Positions 4,171-56,511 of a stretch of 58,322 nt of DNA are shown one piece after another. The DNA comes from Candidatus Neomarinimicrobiota bacterium (GTDB taxonomy: Bacteria; Fidelibacterota; SORT01), in NCBI GenBank assembly GCA_022573815.1, contig JACZTG010000012.1, positions 1-58,322 of the forward strand, in the 5' to 3' direction. Below the pieces are notes generated by a model. That model saw only the letters and a program-made list of their open reading frames with translations, made no database searches and had not been told where the DNA came from. The first letter of the stretch is position 1. The number at the start of each line of letters is the position of its first letter. Made by a program: the position numbers and the translations under genes.

Positions 4171-7020
4171 ATGACTAAATTCAATCAATTATTTTTAATT
4201 ATAATAATCTTCTTCCTTACCGGATGCACCGGTCAGAAAGGAAACGAAAGCCTTAAAGGAATCGGACAGCAGTTTTTCCCGTCCCTGGATAGTCCCATAC
4301 CGGTCAACCCGAATGTGGTTGAAGGAAAATTGGATAACGGTATCAAATATCTTATTCTGAAAAACGGGAAACCGGAAAATAGAGCGGAACTCCGACTAGT
4401 TGTAAACGTCGGCTCGGTGTTGGAAGAAGATGATCAGCAAGGTCTCGCCCACTTTGTGGAGCATATGGCGTTCAACGGAACCAAGAATTTCGCGAAGCAG
4501 GAAATTGTGGATTATCTCGAATCCATCGGAATGCGGTTCGGAGCCGACATAAATGCGTACACAAGCTTTGACGAAACCGTTTATATGCTAAAAGTCCCAA
4601 CCGACAGCGCGGAAATGGTCGAACAGGGGTTCCTGATATTAGAAGATTGGGCAAGCGGTGTGAGCTTCGAAGATGAAGAAATCGACAAGGAAAGAGGCGT
4701 GGTCATCGAGGAATGGCGACTGCGAAGAGGCGCTGAAGCGCGGATGTTCGATAAACAGCTTCCCGTACTTTTCAAAGATTCCAGGTACGCTGTCCGGTTG
4801 CCTATCGGTCAAAAAGCCGTACTCGACAGCTTCAGTTATGATGCGGCAAAACGATTTTACAAAGAGTGGTATCGCCCCGAATTGATGGCTGTCATCGCAG
4901 TAGGCGACTTCGACGTAGAATGGATCGAAGGACTGATAAAAGAACACTTTAACCGAATCCCGGCAAGCGAGAATCCGAGAGATAGAGAAGTTTACGGAGT
5001 GCCCGACCATAAGGAAACTCTCGTCTCCATCGCCTCCGACAAGGAAGCCACCGGCTCACGGATTTCAATTTACTATAAGCAGGATACGAAAAATGAGAAC
5101 TCACATGGAGCATACCGGGAAGGAATTATAAAATCAATATACAACGCAATGCTTAATGACAGGCTCGCTGAGATCACCACCAAACTTAATGCTCCGTTCC
5201 TTTACGGATTTTCAGCGCAAGGAAGGTTCGTTCGGGAAAAGGAAGTTTACCTCTTAACGTCCGGTGTTCAGGATAACGGAATCGAACGCGGTCTTGAAGC
5301 CCTATTGACCGAAGCCGAACGGGTAGCGCTGCACGGATTCACTTCCGCAGAATTGGAACGGCAAAAGATAAATCAGCTTAAAAGTATGGAAAAAGCTTAC
5401 AACGAGAGGGACAAAACAAATTCCGGAAGTTACGCTTCCGAGTATATCAGACATTTCCTCGTTGACGAGCCGATTCCGGGCATCATATACGAATTTGAGC
5501 TATACAAGATGTATATGCCGACCATCACCCTTGACGAAATAAATAGTCTCGCACGCACCTGGCTCTCCGACGAGAACAGAGTCATCCTCGCAAATCTCCC
5601 GATAAAAGACAGTATAGTAGAACCAACAGATGCGTCTCTCCTCGCTGTCTTTGACATAGTGAAATCACTGACCATTGAGCCGTACGAAGAGTCAGTGCCT
5701 GACCTGCCATTGGTGGCGGATATTCCCGCGCCATCTGCGGTCACTTCCGAATCATATATAGAGGTGTTGGATATTCACGAATTTATTTTGGCGAATGGAA
5801 TACGCGTTCTGATGAAAAAAACCGACTTCAAAAACGATGAAATACTTATGACTTCGTTCAGCGCCGGCGGCAGATCTCACCTTGTGAGGGATGAATATGT
5901 TCCCGGAAAGATATCCGCGAGCGTCATCAATGAAAGCGGTTTCGGAGCGTTCAACAAAATAGCGTTGGAGAAAAAACTTGCCGGTAAAATTGTCGGAGTC
6001 TCTCCCTACATCGGGTCGGTGAAAGAGGGAATCTCAGGTTCCTCCACACCCGAAGATATTGAGACAATGTTTCAGCTCATTCATCTTGTCTTTACCGCTC
6101 CGAGGAAGGACAGCACCGCATATCTTGCGCTAAAAGAAAGGATAAACGGATTTGTGCTGAACAGGAGCGCAAGCCCCAACGTTGCTTTCAGAGACACTAT
6201 CAGCGCACTGATGTCCCGCAATCATCCGCGGTATCGACCCTGGTCAACAAAACTTGTTGAAGAGTTCGATCTTAATAAGTCATATAATATTTTCCGAAAC
6301 GCATTTGCCGATGCAGGCGACTTTACTTTTATTTTCATAGGAAATATCGAACCTGCTGTCATCAAGAAACTTTCCAGGATTTACCTTGGTAATCTTCCTG
6401 CTGATGCTGAACATTTATCCTTTAAAGACGACGGAGTTGATCCGCCGGAAGGTGTGATAAAGAAGAAAGTCTTTAAAGGTCAGGAACCGAAAAGTAATAC
6501 GCAGATTATCTTCACGGGCGATTTTGAATGGAACAGGCAGAACCGCTATAATATCAATTCAATGGTTCATTCTCTCCGAATTAAACTCCGGGAAGTATTG
6601 CGGGAAGAGCTGGGCGGAACTTACGGCGTCCGCGTAAGCGCAATTCTTCAGGAGTTCCCCGATGAGGAATATCAGATTCGTATCTCATTCGGCAGCGACC
6701 CGGACCGGGTGGCGGAACTGACCGAAACTGTTTTTACCCAGATAGACAGCCTTAGGAATTTCGGAACCACTGATAAAAATCTCGTTAAAATCAAAGAGAT
6801 CCAGCGAAGGACCCTTGAAACGAGTTTAAAGGAAAACAGTTTTTGGCTCAACACGATTGAATCATATGTGTGGCACAAACAGGATTTTGCTGATGTGATG
6901 AAGTTTGATGAATTGGTGGAAGCGCTTTCGCTTGAGACGATCCGGAAAACCGCCCACATGTATTTTGATATGAACAATTACGTTCAGGTATCGCTTTATC
7001 CTGAAGGATTTGTAGAATAG
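4171..7020 (+). CDS. M16 family (pitrilysin-like) zinc peptidase, lipoprotein
   Basis: A 949-residue product. I chose the ATG at 4171 over an in-frame ATG at 4105 inside the previous gene because AAAGGTAGGA precedes it and a lipoprotein signal (FFLTGC, Cys19) follows at once. It has two tandem M16 halves. The first carries the inverted zinc motif HFVEH in GLAHFVEHMAFNGTKNF, with the downstream ligand region EEIDKERGVVIEEWR about 75 residues later. The second half lacks the motif and ends with the usual REELGGTYGVRV element. It probably degrades peptides in the periplasm and is co-transcribed with the DUF885 gene upstream. Confidence 0.94.
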   Translation: MTKFNQLFLIIIIFFLTGCTGQKGNESLKGIGQQFFPSLDSPIPVNPNVVEGKLDNGIKYLILKNGKPENRAELRLVVNVGSVLEEDDQQGLAHFVEHMAFNGTKNFAKQEIVDYLESIGMRFGADINAYTSFDETVYMLKVPTDSAEMVEQGFLILEDWASGVSFEDEEIDKERGVVIEEWRLRRGAEARMFDKQLPVLFKDSRYAVRLPIGQKAVLDSFSYDAAKRFYKEWYRPELMAVIAVGDFDVEWIEGLIKEHFNRIPASENPRDREVYGVPDHKETLVSIASDKEATGSRISIYYKQDTKNENSHGAYREGIIKSIYNAMLNDRLAEITTKLNAPFLYGFSAQGRFVREKEVYLLTSGVQDNGIERGLEALLTEAERVALHGFTSAELERQKINQLKSMEKAYNERDKTNSGSYASEYIRHFLVDEPIPGIIYEFELYKMYMPTITLDEINSLARTWLSDENRVILANLPIKDSIVEPTDASLLAVFDIVKSLTIEPYEESVPDLPLVADIPAPSAVTSESYIEVLDIHEFILANGIRVLMKKTDFKNDEILMTSFSAGGRSHLVRDEYVPGKISASVINESGFGAFNKIALEKKLAGKIVGVSPYIGSVKEGISGSSTPEDIETMFQLIHLVFTAPRKDSTAYLALKERINGFVLNRSASPNVAFRDTISALMSRNHPRYRPWSTKLVEEFDLNKSYNIFRNAFADAGDFTFIFIGNIEPAVIKKLSRIYLGNLPADAEHLSFKDDGVDPPEGVIKKKVFKGQEPKSNTQIIFTGDFEWNRQNRYNINSMVHSLRIKLREVLREELGGTYGVRVSAILQEFPDEEYQIRISFGSDPDRVAELTETVFTQIDSLRNFGTTDKNLVKIKEIQRRTLETSLKENSFWLNTIESYVWHKQDFADVMKFDELVEALSLETIRKTAHMYFDMNNYVQVSLYPEGFVE

Positions 7021-7388: not shown

Positions 7389-9119
7389 TTAAAAAAGAGA
7401 ACCGCCATCATCACCCAGCATTGCCTTACGAATCATCGGAATGGGCGGCCCGCCGAATGAGAGGTACATATCGTGATACGCTTTCCACGTTCCGTGCATT
7501 CCTCTCGACGCTGTCCAGTCTTCACGGAGTTTCTTTATCATAAGTTTGCCCATAGTGTAGTTCAGATAAGCCGGGTCGTAAGTTCCCCGCGCCGCCTGCT
7601 GCCTCGCATTGCCCGGGTCCTGAAAACCCGATTCCATAAAGAGCGCTTCCGATTCTTCAACTGTCATCCCTTCGGTGTGCAGACCGATGGTGGAAAGAAA
7701 TCGAGCGTTGCGAAGCAGTGCATTAATCAGTTGACCGATATGTATCTCAGGGTCGCCGTCGCTAAATCCGGCATCCCACATCATCTCTTCGGTGTAGTGC
7801 GCCCATCCTTCCGCAAACGCATAGCCGACAAATACCTGTCCGAATTTGGAATCAGACCTGTTGGAATGTAGAAATTGCAGGAAATGTCCGGGCCAAATCT
7901 CATGCACAGAAACGAACATCAGATCCGCTTTACCCGGAAGGTAATCGTGTTGATCTTTTTCGGACCAGGTGGGATCCGGCGGCGCGATATAATACGTTGA
8001 CGGCAATCCTTCTTCATACGGACCGGGAATATTTATATACGCGAAATTCCACCTTGCATATTCGGGCGCTTCCGCCACCAGCGCTTTTTCAGTTCCGGGA
8101 ATAGTTATGAGGTCCTTCTCAATCAGGAAATCTCTGAGCACCGATAATTGTTGACGCGCTCCTTCTACTGCTCCCCCCTCATTCTTCACGCTGCGAGCCT
8201 TTTCAACACACTCATGATTTGTCAGTCCGCTCGCGTATTCAGCGCACGCTTCTGTGAGAGATGCGATATTCCGCGCAAGGTCATTTTGTGCGATGACTTT
8301 TAGGTCAGCGATAGATACATCAACCCGTTCTGTCGCCCACAGCATTTCCTGAAAATTCTCGGCGCCAATTGCGAATCCATCGGTAGCGTCGGGACGCTGC
8401 TCTTCGATCCATGCGTCAAGTTTTTTCATAGCCGCAACGGCAAGCAAGTTCGCTTCTTTCAGATCTGCCTGGAGCTGAGCGTCTTCCACAGTTGCAAATA
8501 CGTCATAAATATCGTTTTCGAAATAAGTAGCATAACCACCGAAAGTGGTGTGACCTAAATTTACGAATGTCAGTGGAAGCGGAGTGCGCAGGTTTTCCAT
8601 TATCTGTTCAACCGCTCTTGGGACTTCACCGGCGAATTTTGTGTAAGCCTGCATCCGAACATCAAGCGGAGCATATTCAAGAATTACATAATTGCTCGGA
8701 TCAAAATGACCCTGGTAAAAATTGGGATTTCGATACTGCTTCTCCGTCGTTTCGAGCCAAAACAGGTCTCCGTCAATGACCGACAGCAAATACTCTCTTT
8801 CGAATCGTTGGCCATCACTCAGTGTTGTCCCGTCAAATGCCATTGCGCCAGTTCGTTTGGCGTGAAGCCGCGCTATCTCTTTGTTAAATCCTTCCACGCT
8901 CCAATCGGGAAGCTGTCCGTCAAATTCATGCCGACCCGCTCCGATAGCTGTTGTGGGATTTGCGACAAAATAATCTTCAAGGAAATCGGAGACGAATACG
9001 TCCCAATCCGCCGAGTGAGTCGGCGACATTTTCACTGTTGATTTTTGACAGCTGACGCTGAGGATTAATAGCATAAAAAGCGTAATAAATCCCGATGTTT
9101 TAGTTGAGATAATTCTCAT
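7389..9119 (-). CDS. DUF885 family lipoprotein, second copy
   Basis: A 576-residue product with a signal peptide ending LILSVSC (Cys24). It has the same metal-site layout as the 2382 gene but is a distant paralogue: HEIWPGHFLQ, then AFAEGWAHYTEEM about 30 residues on, and YTMGKLMIKKLR near the C-terminus. The ATG at 9119 has GGAG 7 bases upstream. It converges with the DUF885-M16 pair, so the three make a local envelope peptidase cluster. The substrate is unknown. Confidence 0.93.
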   Translation of the reverse strand: MRIISTKTSGFITLFMLLILSVSCQKSTVKMSPTHSADWDVFVSDFLEDYFVANPTTAIGAGRHEFDGQLPDWSVEGFNKEIARLHAKRTGAMAFDGTTLSDGQRFEREYLLSVIDGDLFWLETTEKQYRNPNFYQGHFDPSNYVILEYAPLDVRMQAYTKFAGEVPRAVEQIMENLRTPLPLTFVNLGHTTFGGYATYFENDIYDVFATVEDAQLQADLKEANLLAVAAMKKLDAWIEEQRPDATDGFAIGAENFQEMLWATERVDVSIADLKVIAQNDLARNIASLTEACAEYASGLTNHECVEKARSVKNEGGAVEGARQQLSVLRDFLIEKDLITIPGTEKALVAEAPEYARWNFAYINIPGPYEEGLPSTYYIAPPDPTWSEKDQHDYLPGKADLMFVSVHEIWPGHFLQFLHSNRSDSKFGQVFVGYAFAEGWAHYTEEMMWDAGFSDGDPEIHIGQLINALLRNARFLSTIGLHTEGMTVEESEALFMESGFQDPGNARQQAARGTYDPAYLNYTMGKLMIKKLREDWTASRGMHGTWKAYHDMYLSFGGPPIPMIRKAMLGDDGGSLF

Positions 9120-9202
9120 AAGTATTCTCCGGATAAAATTAGTCGGTGATGCTTCGTTTAATCTACGTAAAGTATTTCCAAATGTTCAGAGTGGCAATTT
9201 AA

Positions 9203-27805: not shown

Positions 27806-28195
27806 TTGGAAAAAACAATAGCAAAGATTATCGAACTTTCCGAAATCACCTGTACACGGAAAGAAGTTGATATTGATAATCTCAGAGAACTGCAAAATAA
27901 AATGCTCAATCGACCTGATTTAGCTGCGATTGCAAAAGCGTTTGACATTATAGGCAACGAAACACGGATAAAAATCCTCTTCATCCTTTCCGAAGCGGGC
28001 GAGCTCTGCGTCTGCGACCTGTCAGACATTATCGGTCACACGGTCTCCGCTATTTCTCACCAGCTCAAAAAACTCAAAGAGATCGGTTTCGTGAAAACAC
28101 GCAGAGAACCGCCGACGATATATTACTCAATTTCTGATAACTCGTATCTGAATCTCCTTGTGAATCTCGTTAAGATGGGCGGATTGTATGGTTAA
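27806..28195 (+). CDS. ArsR/SmtB family metal-responsive repressor
   Basis: A 129-residue winged-helix repressor. ELCVCDL (C68, C70) in the alpha-3 region is the classic ArsR/CadC metal site, and C16 in the N-terminal arm (SEITCTRKEVD) could be a third thiol, as in CadC. The DNA-recognition helix is HTVSAISHQLKKLKEIG and the wing FVKTRREPPTIYYSI. The start is TTG at 27806 with AAGGA upstream. Given the MerT downstream, the inducer is probably Hg(II). Canonical mer operons use MerR instead, so this is an ArsR-controlled variant. The merT start overlaps its end. Confidence 0.9.
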   Translation: MEKTIAKIIELSEITCTRKEVDIDNLRELQNKMLNRPDLAAIAKAFDIIGNETRIKILFILSEAGELCVCDLSDIIGHTVSAISHQLKKLKEIGFVKTRREPPTIYYSISDNSYLNLLVNLVKMGGLYG

Positions 28196-28532
28196 AAGTT
28201 CATTCGCATCTATGGGCTCGGTATTTACTGCCTTTATTGCCTCGAGTTGCTGTATCGGCCCTTTAGCCTTTACTCTTCTTGGAGTAGGTGGTATAGGATT
28301 TGGCGTAGGCTTGGAAAAATACAGACCAATTTTGTTGGTCGTCACTTTAGCGCTTCTCGGAATCTCTTTTCAAATGGCATATCGCCCTATAGAGGAAGCC
28401 TGTGTTGATGGAAAATGCGAAGTTGAACCTATAAGGAAATCGAGAAAAATAAACAGAGCCATCCTTTGGATTTCCGCCGGCGTGGCGGTTGTGTTTATGT
28501 TTGTCCCTCAATTACTGCTGATAATCACTTAG
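28188..28532 (+). CDS. merT: mercuric ion transporter MerT
   Basis: A 114-residue inner-membrane protein with three hydrophobic segments. The vicinal pair C21-C22 in ASSCCIGPLAFTLLGVGG is the hallmark of MerT, followed by LEKYRPILLVVTLALLG. A cytoplasmic thiol pair C72/C77 lies in EACVDGKCEVEP before the third segment. It moves Hg(II) from periplasm to cytoplasm. No merP gene is visible nearby. Its ATG overlaps the regulator gene by 8 bases. Confidence 0.92.
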   Translation: MVKSSFASMGSVFTAFIASSCCIGPLAFTLLGVGGIGFGVGLEKYRPILLVVTLALLGISFQMAYRPIEEACVDGKCEVEPIRKSRKINRAILWISAGVAVVFMFVPQLLLIIT

Positions 28533-28547
28533 CCAGAAGAAAATATT

Positions 28548-29069
28548 TTGACAGATACAAATATCATAATTAAAGAAGCAGAATCCACGCATTCAGCTGA
28601 AGTGGATTCTTGCGGCTGCTGTGTTGTTCCGGAAAAGATTGAAGCGCCGGCAAAGGCTGAGTGTCCGGAATCAGGCACGCTGTCTAAAAAAGTTTATCAT
28701 GAAACTTTGGAAAACCTCATCGTTCAGGATAAAAAACATCTAATCTCAAAAGATGTTCAGTATTATAATTGCAGCGACCCTGAATGTGAAGTTGTATATT
28801 TTTCGAATCAGGAAGCGCCTTCATTCAGCGTCGATGATCTTTCAGTCAAGGTATTCGCAAAAGATCCGGGCGATGATGTGAATGTCTGTTACTGCTTCGA
28901 TTGGACGCGAGAACGCATCATAGATCAAATCGAGACTACGGGCAGCTCAACGGCTTTTGATGAAGTTACAAAAGAAGTGAACGCTGATAATTGCGAGTGC
29001 GAAAGGAAAAACCCTAAAGGCGCATGCTGTCTCGGTGACATAAATAGATTCATGAAAGAAATTGCCTAA
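28548..29069 (+). CDS. CopZ-N-like iron-sulfur/zinc metallochaperone, copy 1
   Basis: A 173-residue Cys-rich protein. Cysteines stand at 22, 24, 25 and 39, then C75-x4-C80 (YYNCSDPECEVVYF), C114-x-C116 (VNVCYCFDW) and C149/C151 with C160/C161 (CECERKNPKGACCLGD). This is the [2Fe-2S]- and Zn-binding domain known from the N-terminal half of Archaeoglobus CopZ. The HMA domain is absent. Such stand-alone proteins are often found in mercury or copper loci, where they probably accept metal in the cytoplasm. The start is TTG at 28548. A paralogue lies at 31289. Confidence 0.88.
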   Translation: MTDTNIIIKEAESTHSAEVDSCGCCVVPEKIEAPAKAECPESGTLSKKVYHETLENLIVQDKKHLISKDVQYYNCSDPECEVVYFSNQEAPSFSVDDLSVKVFAKDPGDDVNVCYCFDWTRERIIDQIETTGSSTAFDEVTKEVNADNCECERKNPKGACCLGDINRFMKEIA

Positions 29070-30025
29070 TGCTTAATAAACTTTATCTGTTCATATTCGT
29101 CCTGATAATTTCTTATGCCTCCCCTGCCTGGGGGCAGTGACCCCTTTGAGGGAATATAACGCTTCCGGTCGGCAGCGCAATTGAAGGTATAGGTCTTCGG
29201 AAAGACCAGATTCTCATCGGAAGCGGAGGAACACAATCGTATTCTTCTGAAATTCTCAGCAGCGATAACGGCAGTGGCGAATCCGGGCATGCCGGAAGTC
29301 TTACTATAACCGAGCTGAATCTGTTTGTAGGTTACGGGGTCTCAAGCCTTCTCAATCTGTATGTCAATTTACCTATTAAGCGTATATCACAAAATCCCGC
29401 TGAAGAAGACTTCCATCACCGAACTGAAAGCTTGAACGGAATCGGAGACACGCGGATAAGTCTTAAATGGGTGTTAAGGAATCAGCGTTTAGGTCCCGGC
29501 TGGCGATTATTCTTTGGTTCCGACTTTGTTCTGCCAACGGGCGATTCTTTTGACGTCAATCCATTTTTGACGTCTGCCGATTTCAGTGATCACAGGCACT
29601 TTGCTCTGGGCAACGGAACGAAACTTGCTGATGTTTCTCTTGAAGTATGGAACCGCTCAGAATTTCCGTTCATAATAGGCGCAACTATCAGACAGGGAGT
29701 TTATTCTTCAACAAGTAACGTCGGCTTTAATCCCGGCTTAAATTCCAAGATAACCATTCACGCTATCAGGCAGCGAGCGCTGTTCAGGAATGTATTTCCA
29801 TATCTCAAACTTACAACGCGAATTAAAAGAAAAGACGAGTGGAACGAAATCAATCCGCCAAATTCGGGCGGCACTTTTATCGAGGGAATGTTAGGCTTGA
29901 ATCTCGAGATAAACGACAGAGTGTCCGGTCTTATCAATTTTGATTTTCCCATCTGGAAGTCCGCTACGGGTAATCAGCTGGATTCGTTTAGATTCGTTTT
30001 TTCGTTCAGGCGAATTATTAATTAA
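29069..30025 (+). CDS. outer-membrane barrel with two in-frame TGA codons, candidate UxxU selenoprotein
   Basis: ATG 29069 to the TAA ending at 30025 is one reading frame (318 codons) broken only by TGA at 29138 and 29147. The N-terminus is a signal peptide (LFIFVLIISYASPAWG), and the mature protein would begin Q-[TGA]-P-L-[TGA]-G-NITLPVG. Related barrel proteins of the phenol-MetA/transporter type often have a CxxCG motif just after the signal, so both TGAs fall where Cys is expected. A hairpin with a GGUC loop follows at the right distance. The rest reads as beta strands (LTITELNLFVGYGVSSLLNLYVNLP, GIGDTRISLKW, FVFSFRR end). If TGA is not decoded as Sec it is a pseudogene whose frame has otherwise been preserved. 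It overlaps the chaperone stop by 1 base. Confidence 0.65.
29160..29177 (+). promoter_or_regulatory. candidate bacterial SECIS hairpin
   Basis: CGCT-T-CC-GGTC-GG-C-AGCG: a four-base-pair lower stem, a T/C mismatch, two G-C pairs and a GGUC loop. The E. coli fdhF SECIS also has a GGUC apical loop with an unpaired U below it. The loop begins 17 nt after the second TGA and 26 nt after the first, both within the 16-37 nt range accepted for bacterial SECIS. The upper stem is short, so this is a candidate. Confidence 0.45.
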
Positions 30026-30044: not shown

Positions 30045-30539
30045 ATGAGCGCTGAATCAAAAATTAAAGTATTGCTGATAACTGTTCTTACTTTTTTAAT
30101 CGGCAGCAGCGGTTTCAATTCCGCAATGGCGCAGAATAAAAAAATGATGAAAGCGCCTGATTTCCATCTGATTACAAAATCAATTTACGATTTCTCTGAC
30201 ACTGTAGAATTGCTTAAAGCAAGTATTGAAGAGCAGAACCTGATGGTTATCAACGAAGTTGACCCTCAGAAAATGTTACGGCTTGTTGGAGTTAAGACAA
30301 AAGGAATGAGGCAAATATTCTTTTTCCATCCGCGTTATATGAAACGAATATATGAAACGAACAAACTGGCATCAATTGAACCGCCACTGAAGATTGTAGT
30401 GATGGAAATGCCCAACGGTAAAGTGATGGTACGCTATATAAGACCTTCTCACAAGTTCAATCCTTATATGGGTCTTAATGAGCTTGCTGCAGAGCTTGAT
30501 GAATTATTGGTAACGATAGCTAAGACTACGACCAAATAG
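30045..30539 (+). CDS. DUF302 domain protein with signal peptide
   Basis: A 164-residue exported protein. The ATG at 30045 follows an AGGGGGGGGAA ribosome site. An in-frame upstream extension to 29940 lies inside the barrel gene and is rejected. After the signal (VLLITVLTFLIGSSGFNSAMA) comes a DUF302 fold: DFSDTVELLKASIEEQNLMV, a long middle part, then LKIVVMEMPNGKVMVRYIRPS and a C-terminal helix. DUF302 proteins are periplasmic and of unknown function, often near metal or stress genes. Confidence 0.85.
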   Translation: MSAESKIKVLLITVLTFLIGSSGFNSAMAQNKKMMKAPDFHLITKSIYDFSDTVELLKASIEEQNLMVINEVDPQKMLRLVGVKTKGMRQIFFFHPRYMKRIYETNKLASIEPPLKIVVMEMPNGKVMVRYIRPSHKFNPYMGLNELAAELDELLVTIAKTTTK

Positions 30540-30557: not shown

Positions 30558-31286
30558 TTGCTTAAAAATAATCAAAGAAAATATCTCATTCTTCTCGCGC
30601 TGTTCACCGGTGGAGCTGTTCCTATTCAGTTCGTAACTCTTTCGTTTGGTTACGCTCAGCTCATCAAGCAGGTATCGTTAGGTCCCAAAGTAGTAATTAC
30701 AGCTCACGAGTTTGCTTCATATTATATTCCACTGATTTATATTCCGTCCATACTGGTTCTTATTGCGATTACAGTTTACAGCCGAAAAAAATATCCCGAT
30801 CTATTCAGAAGAATTGTTGTAGGATTAGGTACGGGAGCTATCGCCACTATCGCTTTAGACGCGGTCAGACAATCGGGAGTTATTCACGGCTGGCTGCCTG
30901 CTGATATGCCTATTCTTTTCGGAAAAGCTGCAACAGGAAGCGGGAGTTTCGCCGTTTATTACCCGGTTGGATTATTCATTCATTTTTTCAACGGCGCAAA
31001 TTTCGGATTAATCTATGCTTTCATCTGGGGGAAACGGAATAATTATAAATCAGCTGTTTTGTGGGCTACTTTTTGGTTGTTATTGATGGAACTCGGTATG
31101 ATGACCGCACCGCCTATGGGTCCCATGGTCGGTCCATTCGGAATCAATTACCTATGGCCACAGTTATTTATTCTTACTCTCATCGCTCATGTAGCATTCG
31201 GAGTTGTGTTAGGCTTGTTAACACAACACTTTTTAAAAGAGGACGACAAGGTCGGGTTTTTACAATTTATTAAAAATAGAGGATAG
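30558..31286 (+). CDS. polytopic membrane protein of the mercury cluster, unknown function
   Basis: A 242-residue protein with about six hydrophobic segments, including LILLALFTGGAVPIQFVTL, FASYYIPLIYIPSILVLIAI, VGLGTGAIATIALDAV and LFILTLIAHVAFGVVLGLL. A MELGMMTAPPMGPMVGPFG stretch is rich in Met, which could contact a soft metal. There is no family I can name. The start codon is TTG at 30558 with no good ribosome site, and the previous gene's stop is in the same frame 18 bases before. It is followed immediately by the second CopZ-N-like gene. Confidence 0.75.
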   Translation: MLKNNQRKYLILLALFTGGAVPIQFVTLSFGYAQLIKQVSLGPKVVITAHEFASYYIPLIYIPSILVLIAITVYSRKKYPDLFRRIVVGLGTGAIATIALDAVRQSGVIHGWLPADMPILFGKAATGSGSFAVYYPVGLFIHFFNGANFGLIYAFIWGKRNNYKSAVLWATFWLLLMELGMMTAPPMGPMVGPFGINYLWPQLFILTLIAHVAFGVVLGLLTQHFLKEDDKVGFLQFIKNRG

Positions 31287-31288
31287 CT

Positions 31289-31807
31289 ATGCATGACTGC
31301 TGCGATGTTTCGATAGATAAAATTATGGCGAACGAACACAAAGCCGGCGGAGTTTGCTGCCTTGTAACGGAGAAAACAGATGCTCCCCTGCGAGCCGACT
31401 GTCCACAATCGGGAACGAGCTCCCGAAAAATTCAGCGCCGAACTGTTGAGCATTTGGTAAAACCTGAATTGATTGGAAACTTATCAGATTCGCAGTATTA
31501 CTATTGCGACGCTCCTGATTGCCTCGTAGTATATTTCAGTCAGAATGGTTCCGGTACTTTTACCAAAGGTGATTTGCAGGTGGCGGTATTCGCAAAAGAT
31601 TCGGGCAGAGATGTGAACGTCTGTTATTGTTTTGATTGGACGCGAGGACGTATTGAAGAAGAGATCAAAGAAACAGGCGCCTCCACCGCATCCCGTGACG
31701 TGGCTGAAAAAGTCAAAGCAGGTCTTTGTGAATGTGACATAAAGAATCCAAAAGGAACTTGCTGTCTTGGTGATCTGAATCGGGTAGTAGCGGCGCTTCA
31801 GGAATAA
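31289..31807 (+). CDS. CopZ-N-like iron-sulfur/zinc metallochaperone, copy 2
   Basis: A 172-residue paralogue of the 28548 product. The same Cys scaffold is present: C38, C73-x4-C78 (YYYCDAPDCLVVYF), VNVCYCFDWTRGR and CECDIKNPKGTCCLGDLN at the end. The N-terminus differs: MHDCCD and GVCCL add two vicinal thiol pairs. It begins 2 bases after the membrane-protein stop, so it is translationally linked. Two diverged copies in one operon suggest separate partners or metals. Confidence 0.88.
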   Translation: MHDCCDVSIDKIMANEHKAGGVCCLVTEKTDAPLRADCPQSGTSSRKIQRRTVEHLVKPELIGNLSDSQYYYCDAPDCLVVYFSQNGSGTFTKGDLQVAVFAKDSGRDVNVCYCFDWTRGRIEEEIKETGASTASRDVAEKVKAGLCECDIKNPKGTCCLGDLNRVVAALQE

Positions 31808-47176: not shown

Positions 47177-49090
47177 TTACCCTAAAATATGCAATTCGCG
47201 TTTATTCACAGAAAGCCCGCTGTTACTCAGTCTCCGGTCATCCACACGTCTGCCCATCAGGTTGCCAACACTCTGATTCAGCCGGCTATTTCGTCTCGCT
47301 TCATTCCGAAGCGTTTTCGGAAGCCTATCAACGAAATTTTCTATTTCGTACTCCGTTTTCCACGGCTCCAATAGATCAATTTTTTTCGATTGCACCCGGG
47401 CGCTTATGTCAATTCCGAGCTCATCGTCCTGCACTAAAATGGTGTCTCCCACTTCGATTTTGTCGTATTGGAAAGCGTCCGGGTCCATCTCATAAAGATC
47501 AACCGCATTTATGATATATTTTGTTTTCGGAGTTTTATTCTCCTGAAGAGCGTCGAACCCTTCATCCCAGAGCAGTCGCGCTCCGCTGATGGGATAAAAT
47601 TCGTTTGGAACGCTCAGTCGCGCCGCTTTTTCCACCATAACTGAATCCACGTAAAATTCCGATTGAGCGGAATTTGAGAGTATCTTAACAGTTCCCACAG
47701 TTGTTTTAGCCGTAATCCCCTCAACAATGAGCTGCGTCCATACGCCGATAATTGAGGTTTCCGCCGTTTCGCCTGAGGCTGACGGCTGGTCATCAACGCC
47801 GTCATTGAGTTCAAGTTTTACATTACCTGATATAACATAAACCCATACGTATAACGAATAAATGCTGTCCGTTTCTAATATGACAGATTGCTTTATTCCC
47901 TCTCCCACATCGGCTTCTTCGATCTTCTGACTCTTTGAACCGTATCGCACGAAATTTGGATCGGTCACCGCGGCTACCGGAAATGATCCGCCGATTGTGA
48001 CAACAGACCAGTTTTCCCCGATTCCGGAAACGAACTCCCGTGAAAAATCAGGATTGAATAGTAGATTTCGCGCCTCAACTATGGATTTATTGAAATGAGC
48101 CGCTTCCACCGTTCCGTGAGATGCGATAGAAGCTGCGTCTCTTATGTAATTAAAATCCGTTCCCGACGCATCGGCAACTATCTTGAAATAATCGCCTACC
48201 GTCAGGCTGCTCAGAGCGGTTGTTATCACCACCTGACTTCCTGCAATCGAGTCTATTATTTCACGCCGCACTCCAATTGATACTCCGCCCACCGCTCTTG
48301 TCACCTCGAAATGATAATTATTCCACGAATCGTCCGACGGTACTAACCGATTGTGAGAGTTAATGGTAGCGCCGGATATGGATTCGACAATATGTTCCGC
48401 TGATACCGTATCGAGGATATTGTCTCCGCCGATATCCGCTGGCGGCTCTCCACCTCCCGCCGGATATACGACATTGAAAAGGTCCCGCGTATCAATATTT
48501 CTCCTGATGCCCGTGAGATTCCGCGTATAACGCAGCCGTGCGCTTCGGTTTGTCCCTCTTGGGAGGATACTGACAGATTTATCATTGTTGACTATGAGGT
48601 CGCTTCCGAGACGTTCCCGCACATCGTCCACCAACTCAAGCACCGAGCCGAAATTCAGCACTACATCAAGTTTGGTGGCGGGGCTGATAGTGCCTACCGT
48701 AAATGACGACTCTCCCATTATCTCATTCATCACCGTCAAAGGCTCAGCCTGAACGTACGGAGTCCATTTCGGATAGATTTCCTCCAACATATCGTATTTA
48801 ATATGTTCGCACTCCAAAAATCCTGTAGGCGAATCTTTCTCCGTACGTGTGTCCTGTTTTTGTTTTATCCTGAACGGCAGATAGCTCTCATCATCGAGAT
48901 TCACCACCCGAATAAACTTGCGATTTTCTATCATAGACCAGCTGTCGCTATCTCTTGAAATGCCTATGGATAAAGAGTTATCGCCGTTTAATTCGTCAAT
49001 CATTTTCGCGAAAATCAGATCGTCAGTGGGAATTATGAGCTCCCGGGACGAGTTAGCTGAGTCGTACAGTTCCAGCCGGAATTTAGCCAT
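47177..49090 (-). CDS. phage tail hub/tail-associated protein with carbohydrate-binding insert
   Basis: A 637-residue protein. The first 230 residues match the prophage tail-associated (Gp27/Tal-type) hub: MAKFRLELYDSANSSRELII, PTGFLECEHIKYDMLEEIYP and LVDDVRERLGSDLIVNNDKS with NIDTRDLFNVVYPAGGG. Residues 340-490 are a galactose-binding/CBM-like jelly roll (NLLFNPDFSREF, GSKSQKIEEADVGEGIKQSV). The end (VGDTILVQDDELGIDISARVQ) closes the hub. It is probably the central tail tip protein and may contact the host surface. Usual partner of Dit (49629-52733). Confidence 0.85.
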   Translation of the reverse strand: MAKFRLELYDSANSSRELIIPTDDLIFAKMIDELNGDNSLSIGISRDSDSWSMIENRKFIRVVNLDDESYLPFRIKQKQDTRTEKDSPTGFLECEHIKYDMLEEIYPKWTPYVQAEPLTVMNEIMGESSFTVGTISPATKLDVVLNFGSVLELVDDVRERLGSDLIVNNDKSVSILPRGTNRSARLRYTRNLTGIRRNIDTRDLFNVVYPAGGGEPPADIGGDNILDTVSAEHIVESISGATINSHNRLVPSDDSWNNYHFEVTRAVGGVSIGVRREIIDSIAGSQVVITTALSSLTVGDYFKIVADASGTDFNYIRDAASIASHGTVEAAHFNKSIVEARNLLFNPDFSREFVSGIGENWSVVTIGGSFPVAAVTDPNFVRYGSKSQKIEEADVGEGIKQSVILETDSIYSLYVWVYVISGNVKLELNDGVDDQPSASGETAETSIIGVWTQLIVEGITAKTTVGTVKILSNSAQSEFYVDSVMVEKAARLSVPNEFYPISGARLLWDEGFDALQENKTPKTKYIINAVDLYEMDPDAFQYDKIEVGDTILVQDDELGIDISARVQSKKIDLLEPWKTEYEIENFVDRLPKTLRNEARRNSRLNQSVGNLMGRRVDDRRLSNSGLSVNKRELHILG

Positions 49091-49109
49091 ATTTTAGTGC
49101 CTTATTTTA

Positions 49110-49610
49110 TTGTTCGCCATCAGCCTGTGTACCTTTAAGCCCATATATTCTTTCGTCGCATCCACCGCCGGAGGCAGGGGATAAAATGTTTTTTTTGAGT
49201 GCATTGACTATGTCAATGCGGCATCAACGCAGTTGATGCACTCCTATAAAACGATAGGCCGTGCGGGAAGTGTGTGATTTATCAATTTGCTCTAAACCTT
49301 TCGCTATCAAACAGTCACACCCCTCGTCCGCCGGCTGGCGGACACTCCCCTCAAGGGGAGAGGAATTATTTACGGTCAGGGCCTGTCCGACTGATGCCAG
49401 GCGGGCAAGCGTAAGTCCCGCCAACGGCGGTGGCCCTAACCGCCATCAGCTGATTTTGCGACACACCCCGCCCTCAACCTCGGTTGAGCCACCCCTCCCC
49501 GCCAGACCAATGTCGGGCTGGTTTATAGAGGGGAATTGAACGACGGCTGCTGCCCTTTGTTGCCTCCCCTCCTTTTTAAGGAGGGGACTGAGGGGTGGTT
49601 TTCCATACCA
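49110..49610. repeat. repeats between two tail genes, including 160-bp direct repeat copy 2
   Basis: 49167-49325 is the second copy of the 46641 module with the palindromic core at 49197-49243. Then B modules (CTCCCCTCAAGGGGAG), C (GGTCAGGGCCTGTCC...GGCCCTAACC) and a B end (CCTCCTTTTTAAGGAGGGG...GGGGTGGTT). Host-type repeats have thus invaded the phage module. Confidence 0.75.
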
Positions 49611-49628
49611 TCTCATTCCTGCCATTCT

Positions 49629-52600
49629 TTAGAGCCACCGCTTTCTGTATTTAATATTCATTCCACCGTTTGCCGTTTTATTGAAAATAACCGATTTGCC
49701 GGATTCTAACTTCGGCAAGATTGCGCCTACATCCATAGAGGCTACGGCGTTTGTGAAAGTTCCCGCTGATGAATCGGCAAATTCCACAGTTTGCTTTCTG
49801 CTGTCCAACAGCAACCGGTCCCCTTCCGCAAGAACTTTTGTCATACTGAATTTCGCGTTATCATTCTTCAATGCGGTTGCTGAATTTGCATACTTCAGCG
49901 CTTCTACTCCTGAAAGTTCACGGGAAAAGAGGTAGAGTTCGTCAACTATCGCGTCGGGAAAGAGCGTCTGAGCCCCATCGCTCATATACAAGGTGGCGGG
50001 ATTACCGCTTAGAGCCGAAACATTTGAATTCGTTACGTTTCCGGCGATTCCGTTCAGATATACTTTCACGCCTCCCGCTCCGTAAGTGCCTGTAAGACAG
50101 AGTGTTTCCCCTGCGTTAAAAGTAGGCGCAAGCAGTTCAGCATCGTAATCAGTCCCGCTGACTTTTTTCCTGAAGACAAATTTCCCGTTGGTCCCGTCAT
50201 AGAAAAGTCGCAGATAGTTATTCGCGTCATACCGAATCTCGTAAAATACCGCATCCTGATTATTGCCCGTCCAGCCGGAACCGAAGAGCGGTTTCAGCCA
50301 TACGATTATGGAACCTTCGTCTTTATTCGCCGTGACATTCCACGATAGCGTGTCGTCTCCGTCTAACAATAAGCCCTGCCCGAACCGTTCCTGTGAATAC
50401 GAATCGAATTCGGGTGTTGCTTTTGAGGCGGCATTTGCGGTTACGGTGTCGAGTTCGATTATATGAACATCGTCAATCCAAAAAGTATTAGTACCGCTTT
50501 CAGCGGTCCGGATTCTTAAATCCCCATTCGTATCTGAAGCGCCGCTTTTTATAAGCAGATAGTATTTAGTCCAATTCGTTGAGATATTTGTTATAGTCTT
50601 TGAAGTCTCGCCAATCGCTCCAACCAATCCCTCAACATTAATAATGACGTCTTCAGTCCCGTCACTGCCTTTTAGCCATACCGCTGCGAGAAACCATTTG
50701 TTAATCGGGAAAGATACTCCATTCTGACGAATACCCTCGCCTATTGCATCGGTGACTATTTTTTGAGATGCGCCTCCTGAATGAACAGTCGAGTTATCTT
50801 CCGTTATAGTTGGCGTGCCCATCAAAGTCCAACTGTCTGCCAGACCCGCTGTGAAGTTTTCCATACCTCCATTGTCTACGTTACTAACCTGACAATCCAT
50901 CTGGTCTACTCGTATTTCAGCATCGCCGTTGGCGTTTACTTTTCTTAGTCTAAATTGATGCGCTACAGCGCCGTCAGCTTCAAACGTTCCCTCGAAATAT
51001 AACCATTTTCCCGTTGCATAGGATACGCCCATATCATCAGTAACATTATCTAATCGTCTTGTATGAACAGTTGAATTTCCTGCAATATCAAGAAATAATC
51101 TATCGTTGAAATGTAAGGTTTGAGCATAAACCCATAGACGATAGAAGTAATCCTGGTTATCAACAAGTACGACGGTAGACCTGAATGCATATTCTTCTGT
51201 AAGGGCAGAAGTCCAATCTAATTGTGCCGATTGTGCATCATATTTTACTATAGCCGCCTCGTTAGTTACTGAGGTATTTACACCAGAGCCACCTGTTCCT
51301 CCGTAAACCCACTCAGCCGCCGGATCGACTTCTTGGTCGCCATCTGTGAACTTATTATCCACCCACGGATATTGGACGCTCACAGGAACCCCGGAGGATA
51401 ATTCGCCCGCCGATAAAAGTTTCGTGTCGGGAGTAACGAAAGGCTCAACACCCGCACCCGAATTATATAGCGCCGCAATTTCCGCATCAGACAATGCTCG
51501 CTCCAAAATTTGCCAATGGATTAAACCTTCCGTAATTTGAGAGGCATTTAAATTTTCATCCTGTCCTATTGAAAGTGTAGCGTCCACATCGCCAACGGCA
51601 ATAGTTGATTTAGTATTGCCTCCTTCCCTCGATGTGTTTACGTCAATCTGCAAACTGTTATTTGATGAGTCTATCTTATTTTTCAAGTCCCATCTTGCGG
51701 TAATCATAACCCAAGCGCCGGCAACTATATCACCGGCAACACCTGAAATAGAAGCGCTGTTAGTTGCGGTCGGTTCTCTATATGTGAAAGTTATTCCGGG
51801 AGTCGTTTGATTATCAATTTCTATAGAGATAAAATTATTACTGCCAAACTTCTCTATGAAAATAGTATGACCTAATAAATCTCCTGCCGTGAAATAAGGT
51901 TTGAGCCAGATTACGACAGTACCCTGATACGGATTGAAATTCTTGTAATTGAAGCCATTCAGAAGACTTCCTCTATCGAAGTATAGGTTATCCTTCCGAT
52001 TAATCTGTATTCCCTTCGACTGTCGGCTCGAAAGGTTTTTGAAAGTTCTGTAACCAAATTGATTTGTGTAATTTCCCGCAATATCAGAAAGCGTTACATC
52101 CGACAGATTGTCGCTATAATCAAAGTGCGCTATCGCTGCCTTATCGCCCTCAACAAGAATCGGGTTTGTGACAGCCCCTTTTATCTCAATAATAGAATCG
52201 TTGTGAGCAGTTCCGGTGGGAAAGGTCTTGAATTCATCGGCGGAACCCGCCATTGTGGCTTCGGACAAAGCACTCGCAACGGCAAAAGGCTCGTCGCATC
52301 TGAACCGCGCCCGAAACCGTTTTATGTCGTTACTCATCCAGCGATGCGATATTTCCGGAAGATCAAATATTCCATCGAACACAGCGTTGTAATACCTACC
52401 CGATTCATCGCCGAATTCTAACCTTCCGTATTCCATCCCGTCGGAGATAGTCCTGTTTCCCGTCGGCAACAGTTCATCTTCCATTGCGAAAAGCGATTTC
52501 AGATTATCGATATTGCTCATCAAATTTGAGTGTGAAGTTCCCTCAACAGTTCCCTCTATCTCAATGATACGAGGCTTGTACGTCTGCTTGAAAGCCATCT

Positions 52601-52733
52601 GTCCGTGCCGCCCGGGAATCGAAATACCTTTCACGTTCACCCGGGGTTTCCCTCGTCCCATTACTTCCGTTATCTCCGCGAAATAATCACGCAGCGATTT
52701 GCCGTTCCATTTGATTGAATCGGTGAATGCCAT
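49629..52733 (-). CDS. evolved distal tail protein (Dit) with LamG and CBM insertions
   Basis: A 1034-residue protein. Residues 1-160 are a siphovirus tail (PF05709-type) N-domain: SIKWNGKSLRDYFAEITEV, VKGISIPGRHGQMAFKQTY, FDLPEISHRWMSNDIKRFRARF. The matching C-terminal part reappears only at the end (VLAEGDRLLLDSRKQTVEF through INIKYRKRWL-like end). Between them are a LamG domain (about 200-430), CBM-like jelly rolls (about 470-760) and a second LamG (about 790-970, DEGSIIVWLKPLFG, DAIVDELYLFSRELSG). So sugar-binding modules were inserted into Dit, as in the evolved Dit proteins of lactic phages. ATG 52733 has GGGAG upstream. Confidence 0.85.
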   Translation of the reverse strand: MAFTDSIKWNGKSLRDYFAEITEVMGRGKPRVNVKGISIPGRHGQMAFKQTYKPRIIEIEGTVEGTSHSNLMSNIDNLKSLFAMEDELLPTGNRTISDGMEYGRLEFGDESGRYYNAVFDGIFDLPEISHRWMSNDIKRFRARFRCDEPFAVASALSEATMAGSADEFKTFPTGTAHNDSIIEIKGAVTNPILVEGDKAAIAHFDYSDNLSDVTLSDIAGNYTNQFGYRTFKNLSSRQSKGIQINRKDNLYFDRGSLLNGFNYKNFNPYQGTVVIWLKPYFTAGDLLGHTIFIEKFGSNNFISIEIDNQTTPGITFTYREPTATNSASISGVAGDIVAGAWVMITARWDLKNKIDSSNNSLQIDVNTSREGGNTKSTIAVGDVDATLSIGQDENLNASQITEGLIHWQILERALSDAEIAALYNSGAGVEPFVTPDTKLLSAGELSSGVPVSVQYPWVDNKFTDGDQEVDPAAEWVYGGTGGSGVNTSVTNEAAIVKYDAQSAQLDWTSALTEEYAFRSTVVLVDNQDYFYRLWVYAQTLHFNDRLFLDIAGNSTVHTRRLDNVTDDMGVSYATGKWLYFEGTFEADGAVAHQFRLRKVNANGDAEIRVDQMDCQVSNVDNGGMENFTAGLADSWTLMGTPTITEDNSTVHSGGASQKIVTDAIGEGIRQNGVSFPINKWFLAAVWLKGSDGTEDVIINVEGLVGAIGETSKTITNISTNWTKYYLLIKSGASDTNGDLRIRTAESGTNTFWIDDVHIIELDTVTANAASKATPEFDSYSQERFGQGLLLDGDDTLSWNVTANKDEGSIIVWLKPLFGSGWTGNNQDAVFYEIRYDANNYLRLFYDGTNGKFVFRKKVSGTDYDAELLAPTFNAGETLCLTGTYGAGGVKVYLNGIAGNVTNSNVSALSGNPATLYMSDGAQTLFPDAIVDELYLFSRELSGVEALKYANSATALKNDNAKFSMTKVLAEGDRLLLDSRKQTVEFADSSAGTFTNAVASMDVGAILPKLESGKSVIFNKTANGGMNIKYRKRWL

Positions 52734-52926
52734 TCAACTCTCCCGTTCAGAATTGCCAACTGCCTGTCATTTAAACGGGTTTAGGTCAGGTTTTTGCTTG
52801 ATGTGGAGGGATGAGTTAAATTGCTTGCTTGATTTGGAGCTGACGGACTAAATTATCTTATTCTCGAGAATCGGATTTTCATGGGCTGTAATATAACTGA
52901 TAGTGTATATAGAGTATGGATAGAAA

Positions 52927-53820
52927 GTGAAACAAGGAACTGAGTTCGAAATATTGACAACGGAACTGTTCTCACGATTATCAAAGGATAGAGAGTTTGA
53001 ATCAGTTGAGCATAATATTTGGCTTGATGGTCATGATGGTAAACGACAAATAGATGTATTATTGTCTGGAAAAGTTGGTCCTTTTGATGTGAAAACAATA
53101 ATCGAATGTAAAGATTTTTCGAAAAATGTAAATATTACCGAAATCGACGCACTTCCTTCAAAGAGGATGGATGTTAATGCTCATAAAGCGGTGTTGGTAG
53201 CAAGAAAAGGTTTTTCGAAGAAAGCAATAAATAAAGCAAAAAGATTAGGGATTTCTCTTTGCACAGCACACAGTGCTTCAAAGGAAAGATGGAAATTTGC
53301 TCTTGAGCTTCCTATCGTAATCACAGAGCATGCTTGTGATGTATCAACTCCAAGTTTTGAATTTAGAGCAATTGGAAATTCTCTTAATCTTGATTCAATA
53401 ACAAATTTTAATGATATTCCGCTTCCTAAAATTATTGCAAATTACTGGAATGACACGGAAATAAAGTGTAAAGATGGCTTGAATGATCACAAATTTTATC
53501 CCGATATTCCAAAACCTCAGTGGATACGGGTACCTGACGGTAGAAAAATGATAATAGAAAATTTTAATATAATTATGCATATACAAAAATCATATTATTT
53601 TGGATACGTGAATAATCTTGACTCAGCTAAATATCTTCAATTTTATGATGAAAATAAACGCCATGTAATTTTTGATCCGAGAGATTTATCGGATTATCGT
53701 ACAAAATTTGTGAAATTTATTAACAAAGAAGAATTGCCCAATATTGACGATACAGTCTTTATTAGTGTTAAACATTTGCACAATCCGGATGCAGTATTCA
53801 ATCCGAGTGAAACTCCATAG
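52927..53820 (+). CDS. Mrr-like PD-(D/E)xK nuclease
   Basis: A 297-residue protein. The N-terminal half has the Mrr/endonuclease-like core: E8, D43 (GKRQIDVLLSG), E60-C-K62 (VKTIIECKDF) and the helix NVNITEIDALPSKRMDVNAHKAVLVARKGFSKKAI. The second half (130-297) is of unknown fold. Start is GTG 52927. Base composition is clearly more AT-rich than the flanking tail genes and it lies on the opposite strand, so it looks like a separately acquired gene (moron) that may restrict other phages. Confidence 0.82.
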   Translation: MKQGTEFEILTTELFSRLSKDREFESVEHNIWLDGHDGKRQIDVLLSGKVGPFDVKTIIECKDFSKNVNITEIDALPSKRMDVNAHKAVLVARKGFSKKAINKAKRLGISLCTAHSASKERWKFALELPIVITEHACDVSTPSFEFRAIGNSLNLDSITNFNDIPLPKIIANYWNDTEIKCKDGLNDHKFYPDIPKPQWIRVPDGRKMIIENFNIIMHIQKSYYFGYVNNLDSAKYLQFYDENKRHVIFDPRDLSDYRTKFVKFINKEELPNIDDTVFISVKHLHNPDAVFNPSETP

Positions 53821-53918
53821 TCGGACAGGTCACGTCGTCTTCGATTCCTCGCAAAGTCAGATAGTCTATAAATTTACAACAAGTTGGGCTTTAGTTTCAT
53901 CGCTTCAAGCAGAGATTA

Positions 53919-54779
53919 TTACTTCCGCATAACAGCGGCGAGTTGTAAATCGTTCAGATAGAGTTGAAGCAGGTTCCGCTGCGTTCGGACGGGACCCAGC
54001 CGGTCGTTCAGCTTCTTTCGCCGGTCGTCCCGGAGCTTCTCAAAAGTCTCTTCAATGCCCATCATTGCGGCGGCGTCTTTTTCTCTGTCGCCCACAGCCA
54101 GCGGATTCGATTTTTCTTTCACAGTGGGCCAGACAGATTCGAAATAATTTATCAGTCGAGTATTATTTTCAGATAACGACTTCCGGTATTTATCCAACGC
54201 CTCAAGCGGATAGTGTCTGATGAGTTTTGTCAGCTCCCGCTGCTCCTCTATTTGCGCTATCTTCCTCAGATTCACCGCTGTTTCCAATGCGAGTTTTCGG
54301 CTCACCTTATCGTCCGACAACACAGCGTCATTTATCCCGTTTTTCGCCTCACTCACAAGCGACCGATACGACACTTCTTCCTCGTCATCGGCATAGATAA
54401 TTGATTCCTCCTCGGACTCCAGCCCCGCTATTCTGTTCTGAATTGCAGCGCTGTGATTAGAATCCGCCGTTTGCAGAAGCGAGTCGTATTCCCGACCGAT
54501 TTTTTCCGATTCGTTCTTTATGAATTCTTCCGAATACCGTTCATCATCCTGAATCTGGTCAAGCTCGGTATCTCGCTGAAGCCGTAACTTTTCCACTTTC
54601 ATATTATACTCTTCCACAAATCCGGGAAAGAGTTCTTTCAACGATGAAATGACGTCCGTTCCGTAAATCGGATTCATATTTGAGTCGGCGGCTACCGCCG
54701 ATTCTTCTGCCACTTCTTCTTTTATATTTTCAATGACTTCCATCTTCTCTTCCGGTTGCGCAGTCATTTCTTGCTCCAT
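53919..54779 (-). CDS. coiled-coil phage structural-module protein
   Basis: A 286-residue acidic and helical protein. Long heptad-like stretches (VEEYNMKVEKLRLQRDTELDQI, KIAQIEEQRELTKLIRHYPL, TFEKLRDDRRKKLNDRLGPV) suggest a coiled coil. No signal peptide. It lies between the tape-measure-like gene (54785) and Dit, where a tape measure or tail accessory is expected. No family match is recognised; it could be a detached part of the tape measure. Confidence 0.7.
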   Translation of the reverse strand: MEQEMTAQPEEKMEVIENIKEEVAEESAVAADSNMNPIYGTDVISSLKELFPGFVEEYNMKVEKLRLQRDTELDQIQDDERYSEEFIKNESEKIGREYDSLLQTADSNHSAAIQNRIAGLESEEESIIYADDEEEVSYRSLVSEAKNGINDAVLSDDKVSRKLALETAVNLRKIAQIEEQRELTKLIRHYPLEALDKYRKSLSENNTRLINYFESVWPTVKEKSNPLAVGDREKDAAAMMGIEETFEKLRDDRRKKLNDRLGPVRTQRNLLQLYLNDLQLAAVMRK

Positions 54780-54784
54780 CTGTG

Positions 54785-55339
54785 TTAAATTCTAATTCCC
54801 ACCGCTCGCATCTGCGAAACAGTTTCGTTTGCCAGTCTTTCGGCGATAGTCGAAATTTTCTCGCTGTCGGAAAAGCTGATATCACCGTTAAAATTATTAT
54901 GGATTTCAACTACTTTATCAGATTGCTCCCCTGTGGAAGAATTGAGACTTCCATCCGCGAAAGTGTTCCGCCAGAGGTCCAGCGATTCCTGCTGAATAGC
55001 GCGACTTGTGTTCAAAATCCCGATAAGCAGATTCGCCTGTATCTCGGTAATCCCCACGAAATGCCGAAACGACGTTGACCGATTATCTGCTGCATCTCCC
55101 CCGGGCAAGCCTCCGTCCGGTTCGTCATCATCTCCGTCTCCATCGCCATCAGAATTATTTCCAGAATTCAATTCATCGTCAATATTTAAGTCATCGTCGT
55201 TATTATCATCGTCATCGTCGTCATCATCCGGCTCTTTTATCGCATCTCTAATACCTTCGAGAATGAAGATTATTTTTCGTTGCTCCTCGAATGTTGTGCC
55301 AAGGACAGCTTCTGTTCTTTCTTTATCCAATTTCGCCAC
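54785..55339 (-). CDS. short tape-measure-like protein with Asp-rich linker
   Basis: The frame is open from TTG 55426, but GTG 55339 (just inside the end of the chaperone extension) is my choice, giving 184 residues; the start is uncertain. An N-terminal helix (TTFEEQRKIIFILEGIRDAI) is followed by an acidic linker of Asp, Asn, Glu and Gly, then helices and an end NNFNGDISFSDSEKISTIAERL...MRAVGIRI that looks like the C-terminus of tail tape measures. Tape measures are usually 500-2000 residues, so this one is very short: it would specify a short tail or is degenerate. Confidence 0.62.
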   Translation of the reverse strand: MAKLDKERTEAVLGTTFEEQRKIIFILEGIRDAIKEPDDDDDDDDNNDDDLNIDDELNSGNNSDGDGDGDDDEPDGGLPGGDAADNRSTSFRHFVGITEIQANLLIGILNTSRAIQQESLDLWRNTFADGSLNSSTGEQSDKVVEIHNNFNGDISFSDSEKISTIAERLANETVSQMRAVGIRI

Positions 55340-55520
55340 CGAATTTTTTAAGCGCACCGGTTGATGCGGATTTATTTCCTTTTGTCTCGGGCTGAGAGCC
55401 GTAACGGGGGTATCTGTTAGCCACAAGCAGAAGCTGCGGATACGAAATCCCGTGCAGAATATAATCGACTTTCCAGTTCGTCAGGGCGACGATCGCCGCC
55501 ACTACATCTCCCATATCCAA
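55323..55520 (-). CDS. tail assembly chaperone extension (gpT-like), read by -1 frameshift
   Basis: A 65-codon stretch starting at TTG 55520 in the -1 frame relative to the upstream chaperone: AAIVALTNWKVDYILHGISYPQLLLVANRYPRYG and a Lys-rich tail. Its frame is already open from 55547, so ribosomes slipping at A-AAA-AAA (55547-55553) would enter it and make a fusion of about 207 residues. This is the typical gpG/gpGT arrangement between tail tube and tape-measure genes. Independent initiation at the TTG is less likely. Confidence 0.72.
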   Translation of the reverse strand: MDMGDVVAAIVALTNWKVDYILHGISYPQLLLVANRYPRYGSQPETKGNKSASTGALKKFGGEIG

Positions 55521-55522
55521 AG

Positions 55523-55945: not shown

Positions 55946-55948
55946 CCG

Positions 55949-56440: not shown

Positions 56441-56511
56441 CAGGTTATCTCCTAATTAGGTTTTCAATTATATAGTTTCCGTCAGGATTAATTTCTGACT
56501 TGTGCATTAAA

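Follow-up and report, generated by a model that had tools for sequence, protein, structure and literature searches.

A gene of a marine Candidatus Neomarinimicrobiota bacterium, analyzed in a window of 58,322 nt (the whole stretch of DNA under study), encodes with near certainty a selenoprotein, judged from its sequence and those of its relatives; this has not been shown chemically. By comparison of homologs, two selenocysteine (Sec, U) residues in the motif Q-U-x-x-U-S/G-N-P were shown beside the predicted mature N-terminus, decoded via one conserved hairpin. For the remainder of the protein, modeling predicted an outer-membrane barrel of 12 strands that resembles FapF and the COG4313 channels. 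The features of the locus are listed in Table 1.

Table 1. Features of the barrel gene and its neighbors (positions in the window)
Feature	Position	Strand	Evidence or remark
ArsR/SmtB metalloregulator	27806-28195	+	PF01022, E 4e-17; NF033788
MerT-like mercuric transport protein	28188-28532	+	PF02411, 62.7 bits (cut-off 32.9); under NCBIfam equivalog cut-offs
CopZ-type 2Fe-2S/zinc metallochaperone	28548-29069	+	PF18423; NF047645, 113 bits (cut-off 100)
Predicted double-selenocysteine outer-membrane β-barrel protein	29069-30025	+	318 aa if each TGA is decoded as Sec; homologs, AlphaFold2 (AF2) barrel, dN/dS
Predicted signal peptide, codons M1-G22	29069-29134	+	Judged by eye, no SignalP; AF2 helix 2-16
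Predicted Sec codon 1, TGA, residue 24	29138-29140	+	TGA in 79/80 aligned loci, TGT in 1/80; column invariant
Predicted Sec codon 2, TGA, residue 27	29147-29149	+	TGA in 79/80 aligned loci, TGT in 1/80; column invariant
SECIS-like hairpin, GGUC loop 29167-29170	29160-29177	+	Covariation versus synonymous-shuffle control
DUF302 secreted protein	30045-30539	+	PF03625, 33 bits (cut-off 23)
DUF6789-like membrane protein, start codon uncertain	30558-31286	+	PF20587, 24 bits, just under cut-off 27.1
Second CopZ-type metallochaperone	31289-31807	+	PF18423, 67 bits; NF047645, 132.7 bits

Reading Frame of the Barrel Gene

Between its ATG and a TAA stop, the barrel frame is interrupted only by the TGAs at codons 24 and 27, and the codons around them translate as ...AWGQ-U-P-L-U-GNITLPVGS.... 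The original prediction, made from this DNA alone, had described one frame with only two in-frame TGAs after a signal peptide and no frameshift. Both TGA positions, 29138 and 29147, were reproduced. The reading frame is the same in relatives, so a frameshift is not needed. Signal peptide cleavage was predicted by eye before Q23, i.e., the mature protein would begin Q-Sec-P-L-Sec. The ATG overlaps the stop codon of the upstream CopZ gene (TAATG, 29067-29071), and the barrel gene therefore looks translationally coupled to it.

Within the window alone, the barrel frame is not beyond chance, because one or two TGAs occur in 18 frames that span 250 codons or more without TAA or TAG, and because the thermodynamic fold of the single hairpin sequence was uninformative, i.e., no better than shuffles (z = -0.1). 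The case becomes decisive through conservation, since nearly every one of the approximately 83 homologs of the phylum retains this pair of TGAs, as does a second phylum.

Homologs in Neomarinimicrobiota and Other Groups

The gene was found in 81 of 245 Neomarinimicrobiota genomes by sequence search and in about 83 of them with a profile. Nearly all of these homologs, down to approximately 25% identity, have two TGAs and no more, each at the matching codon. Over both phyla, more than 140 other genomes carry the same gene. In an alignment of 54 rows, in which U was read as C, the columns Q23, U24, U27, N29, P33, and G35 are invariant. One-site changes from TGA to TGT were found in two members, i.e., UALC in G125 and CSLU in G086. 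Adjacent barrel paralogs carry CALU in two genomes and the all-Cys CAMC in one. These tandem paralogs, CALU with its own CCUCCGGUCGGAGG hairpin or all-Cys CAMC, were located at L044 (about 5688-6605, - strand), L045 (about 8238-9155, + strand), and L049 (about 8094-9002, + strand). At the three loci they are followed by DUF3179, a known part-selenoprotein family.

In the second phylum, 68 of 85 genomes gave a match, as UxxU or CxxU, i.e., with two TGAs or one. The loci that were read have UGAUSNP, with a paralog that has CPAUSNP or CSAUSNP. A third group, the class of G305, has an all-Cys form in 7 of 198 genomes. The motif CPACSNP was readable in six of the seven, and masked bases lie at the motif in the remaining one. 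In hhalign profile comparison (probability 99.3, E 3e-20), the Cys residues of the third group align with the Sec columns. The three lineages stay separate in the tree, where row L212 is a CSAU, i.e., CxxU, form, and several Sec/Cys changes are needed. The original prediction had pointed to Cys at positions 24 and 27 of relatives as a check, and such residues exist at both positions in CPACSNP and CAMC and at one position in UALC and CSLU. Because Cys forms exist without selenium, Sec is not indispensable to the barrel family.

Several more distant barrels were also observed. In G178, the barrel L166 (4841-5797, + strand) has a single in-frame TGA just past the signal peptide (QVSURRPVLPVG), and it is possibly a further selenoprotein subfamily. 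Related barrels have CC near the mature N-terminus, i.e., AQLCCTT and GQACCT (L165, about 4400-5330, + strand; neighbor +4 of L045), and barrels of this class may often bear a Cys/Sec motif at the N-terminus. Another distant barrel, L162 (6112-8871, - strand), has CDICGCG near its N-terminus and adjoins MbnH-like and MbnP-like copper genes. It matches the profile of the present family weakly (E 1.5e-6), has a CxxC close to the mature N-terminus, and stands in a copper-type context, but it is very distant, the match is partial, and a single locus was looked at.

Other searches gave little. The single-sequence pattern scan of genome contigs recovered one relative only, probably because one-sequence patterns reach only close relatives and the motif pattern spells Cys codons. 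No barrel relative was found by plasmid tblastn or in the viral-contig scans, and the PDB sequence search with the barrel gave a spurious match only.

SECIS-like Hairpin

The bacterial SECIS is a stem-loop located 16-37 nt past the UGA (PMC13188914). The criterion applied here was a stem-loop at that distance that also has a G among its first two loop nucleotides. The barrel family satisfies it with a GGUC, AGUU, or AGGU loop, which lies 17 nt after the second TGA and 26 nt after the first. A GGUC-loop hairpin at the proper distance from both TGAs had already been proposed from the single sequence; its position was confirmed, and it covaries. Among 76 distinct sequences of the first phylum, the loop is GGUC in 53, AGUU in 19, and AGGU in 4. 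The loop-closing pair is intact in all 76, i.e., G-C in 53 and A-U in 23. The seven stem pairs were formed in 94.7% of cells, versus 76.6 ± 1.1% (maximum 81.8%) in 2000 shuffles that exchanged synonymous codons among sequences. On this covariation evidence, the SECIS-like hairpin is under RNA-level selection. Rfam gave no match at the hairpin.

A different hairpin, GAAGUC-AGUUU-GACUUC, was found in the second phylum. Its first nucleotide lies roughly 33 nt past the second UGA, and compensatory variants of the stem occur. Its loop lies about 39 nt after the second UGA, slightly outside 16-37 nt, and the hairpin is for that reason called putative. At loci L194-L213 of this phylum, the UxxU motif is unchanged, but the distance downstream to the SECIS-like hairpin is larger by about 20 nt than in the first phylum. 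Apparently, the element has been moved or exchanged there.

Selenocysteine Machinery and Decoding of the TGA Codons

The presence of Sec machinery in the same genome had been named as a further check, and all four components were found over curated cut-offs, i.e., selA (545 bits), selB (358.6 bits), selD (358 bits), and tRNA-Sec (64.5 bits). The selB gene adjoins selA. The selD gene itself (G000:C21:1186-2109, L170) has one in-frame TGA, and its product is probably also a selenoprotein. Across the phylum, selA was detected in 72 of 83 family-positive genomes versus 105 of 162 family-negative genomes. The difference is significant, but it is weak evidence because selA is common in the phylum. 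The 11 family-positive genomes without selA are mostly incomplete.

In the window, TGA ends 11 of 40 ORFs, which rules out a change of the genetic code. Decoding of the two TGAs as another amino acid, or low-level readthrough, has only the absence of protein chemistry in its favor. This reading is very improbable, since homologs have Cys at both columns, the SECIS-like hairpin covaries, the Sec machinery is complete, and TGA serves as an ordinary stop in the window. The simplest reading of one sequence, a pseudogene with two nonsense mutations (the alternative named in the original prediction) or sequencing errors, retains practically no credibility and is excluded by the recurrence of identical TGAs across two phyla, in more than 140 independent genomes, and by strong purifying selection, i.e., dN 0.17 and dS 1.10 (dN/dS about 0.16) versus the nearest relative, a Candidatus Neomarinimicrobiota MAG.

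Predicted Fold and Structural Relatives

The AlphaFold2 model built with 54 homologs gave a 12-strand barrel with a pLDDT of 87.9, and the mature form gave 88.3. The first 13 mature residues are below 50, and the N-terminus is about 42 in both models. By Foldseek, the best match was FapF (PDB 5o67; E 6.5e-13, TM 0.62/0.67). The COG4313 channel Pput2725 (PDB 4rl8) was also matched (E 3.6e-9, TM 0.64/0.75). FapF differs from the barrel protein in sequence (14% identity) and in its function, polypeptide secretion, and no amyloid genes were recognized near the barrel family. COG4313 shares with the barrel protein the predicted 12-strand architecture and a segment before strand 1. In Pput2725, the lumen is occluded by this segment; hydrophobic substrates were proposed for COG4313, and cysteine is not mentioned in that paper (PMC4493636). 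The two are nevertheless distinct, with about 12% identity, no Pfam match for the barrel or its homologs, and no match of the family profile.

By analogy with this channel, the Sec pair is inferred to lie inside the lumen or by the periplasmic opening, with the reservation that the N-terminus was modeled at low confidence. Five histidines, H74, H116, H117, H175, and H177, are nearly invariant in the 54-row alignment and have counterparts in the Cys forms. From counting strands in the model, they are inferred to sit in loops on the side away from the N-terminus.

Gene Neighborhoods and Metal Context

The gene order in the window is ArsR, MerT, CopZ, barrel, DUF302, DUF6789-like, CopZ. The metal context assigned in the original prediction, i.e., MerT, ArsR, and metallochaperones, was borne out, with MerT, ArsR, and two CopZ-type metallochaperones flanking the barrel gene. 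No MerA over the cut-off was found in this genome. Separately, tailed-phage-like prophage tail and structural genes (minor tail protein, Dit, Ig-domain protein) were observed at the contig end (window 47177-58204, - strand).

Over 79 loci, the commonest neighbors are ArsR (14), MerT(P) (14), and CopZ (10), and an HMA-bearing MerA-like reductase occurs in five. Nearly all of these ArsR, MerT(P), CopZ, and MerA-like neighbors belong to the clade nearest to this gene. Linkage to mer genes holds in the nearest clade and in the Cys forms, but not in most open-ocean members, which among these loci have no mer or copper neighbors. Other clades have gyrase and other housekeeping genes as neighbors and lack the metal genes, except that a small HMA protein is encoded alongside the barrel in five cases. 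At all seven Cys-form loci, an HMA-thioredoxin protein directly precedes the barrel, and several of them additionally encode ArsR, MerT-HMA, and a heavy-metal ATPase. The domain assignments rest on tests in one or two of these loci and on reading by eye in the others. In the second phylum, the CxxU paralogs L203, L204, and L205 are found in a Cus-type operon, i.e., YHS-TolC-TolC-CusB(HMBD). As far as gene neighborhoods can tell, both the Sec and the Cys versions keep soft-metal gene company in separate lineages.

Proposed Function

Selenols bind Hg(II) and Cu(I) strongly. We consider it somewhat probable that the barrel is an outer-membrane soft-metal (Hg/Cu) trap or gate; metal capture is inferred and is not supported by biochemistry. 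The segment before strand 1 would fold into the barrel lumen, as in COG4313, and would bring the pair of selenols, or their diselenide, into the lumen or close to its periplasmic mouth. The barrel would serve a soft-metal system as its outer-membrane component. The metal that it would capture is Hg(II) or, for other members of the family, Cu(I)/Ag(I), and it may hand this metal to, or take it from, MerT and periplasmic carriers of the HMA or CopZ type. Alternatively, it may be a channel that is gated by metal binding or diselenide formation. The transfer may serve metal uptake ahead of reduction, the trapping of metal that has leaked out, or sensing. Sec translation would couple barrel production to the selenium supply. 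Binding of mercury in particular remains an inference, as most open-ocean members lack the mer context.

Two other functions were weighed against the soft-metal trap or gate. In the first, the protein is a redox device, in which UxxU or CxxC cycles between the diselenide or disulfide and the reduced state and thereby gates a channel or reduces an outer-membrane substrate, with no metal capture. UxxU, CxxU, and CxxC are typical redox motifs (PMC13188914), and the HMA-thioredoxin fusion directly before the Cys forms also fits such a device. The flanking genes, however, are metal genes and not redox enzymes, the thioredoxin partner itself has a metal-binding HMA domain, and the five conserved histidines suggest metal ligands. 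The redox device is accordingly regarded as unlikely. In the second, which we hold to be rather doubtful, the barrel is a channel for another substrate, e.g., an organic or selenium compound, the Sec pair is structural or regulatory, and its translation ties the channel to the selenium supply. The Foldseek relatives carry polypeptides (FapF) or hydrophobics (COG4313), and the open-ocean loci have housekeeping neighbors, both of which favor this reading; the metal-gene context in three lineages, in Sec as well as Cys forms, speaks against it.

The soft-metal trap or gate may also be stated for the whole barrel class. Its widespread members, in Sec/Sec, Cys/Sec, Sec/Cys, and Cys/Cys versions from at least three lineages, would carry an N-terminal plug whose selenol pair traps or gates soft metals, and they would provide mer-type (Hg) and cus-type (Cu/Ag) pathways with their step at the outer membrane. 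For this wider statement, the chances appear evenly balanced.

Relation to Known Selenoproteins

No Pfam or NCBIfam model matched the barrel protein, and the family is absent from the 2026 catalog of 119 prokaryotic selenoprotein families (PMC13188914). No such protein appears in the main text of the deep-Sep paper. The family was rated as a new selenoprotein family with two Sec, and a prior mention is not fully excluded.

Other outer-membrane barrel selenoproteins are cataloged, i.e., the GSU2204 family of MtrB/PioB type (NF041027) and the FCYXU TonB-dependent receptor (NF049945) (PMC13188914). They differ from the present barrel in having one Sec each and in belonging to other families, and neither model matched the barrel protein or any row of the 54-row alignment. 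The UxxU metal-binding selenoprotein NF041115 and the Sec-containing MerT (PF02411, C/SxxU) are similar to the barrel in their double Sec or mercury-linked Sec (PMC13188914), but they are separate families, and the barrel matches neither model. The MerT beside the barrel is an uninterrupted ORF without TGA.

Most characterized selenoproteins have a thioredoxin-like fold (PMC13188914). The present protein contrasts with them in its predicted outer-membrane barrel, the Sec pair at the very start, and the mercury and copper gene neighbors. Although two phyla or more commonly carry the family, it is missing from the catalog, Pfam, and NCBIfam. A standard gene caller is expected to split such genes or clip their 5' part. 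If the metal role is true, mer-type systems would gain an identified step at the outer membrane, and the natural Sec/Cys series of the barrel would allow a direct test of why evolution favors selenium over sulfur for mercury binding.
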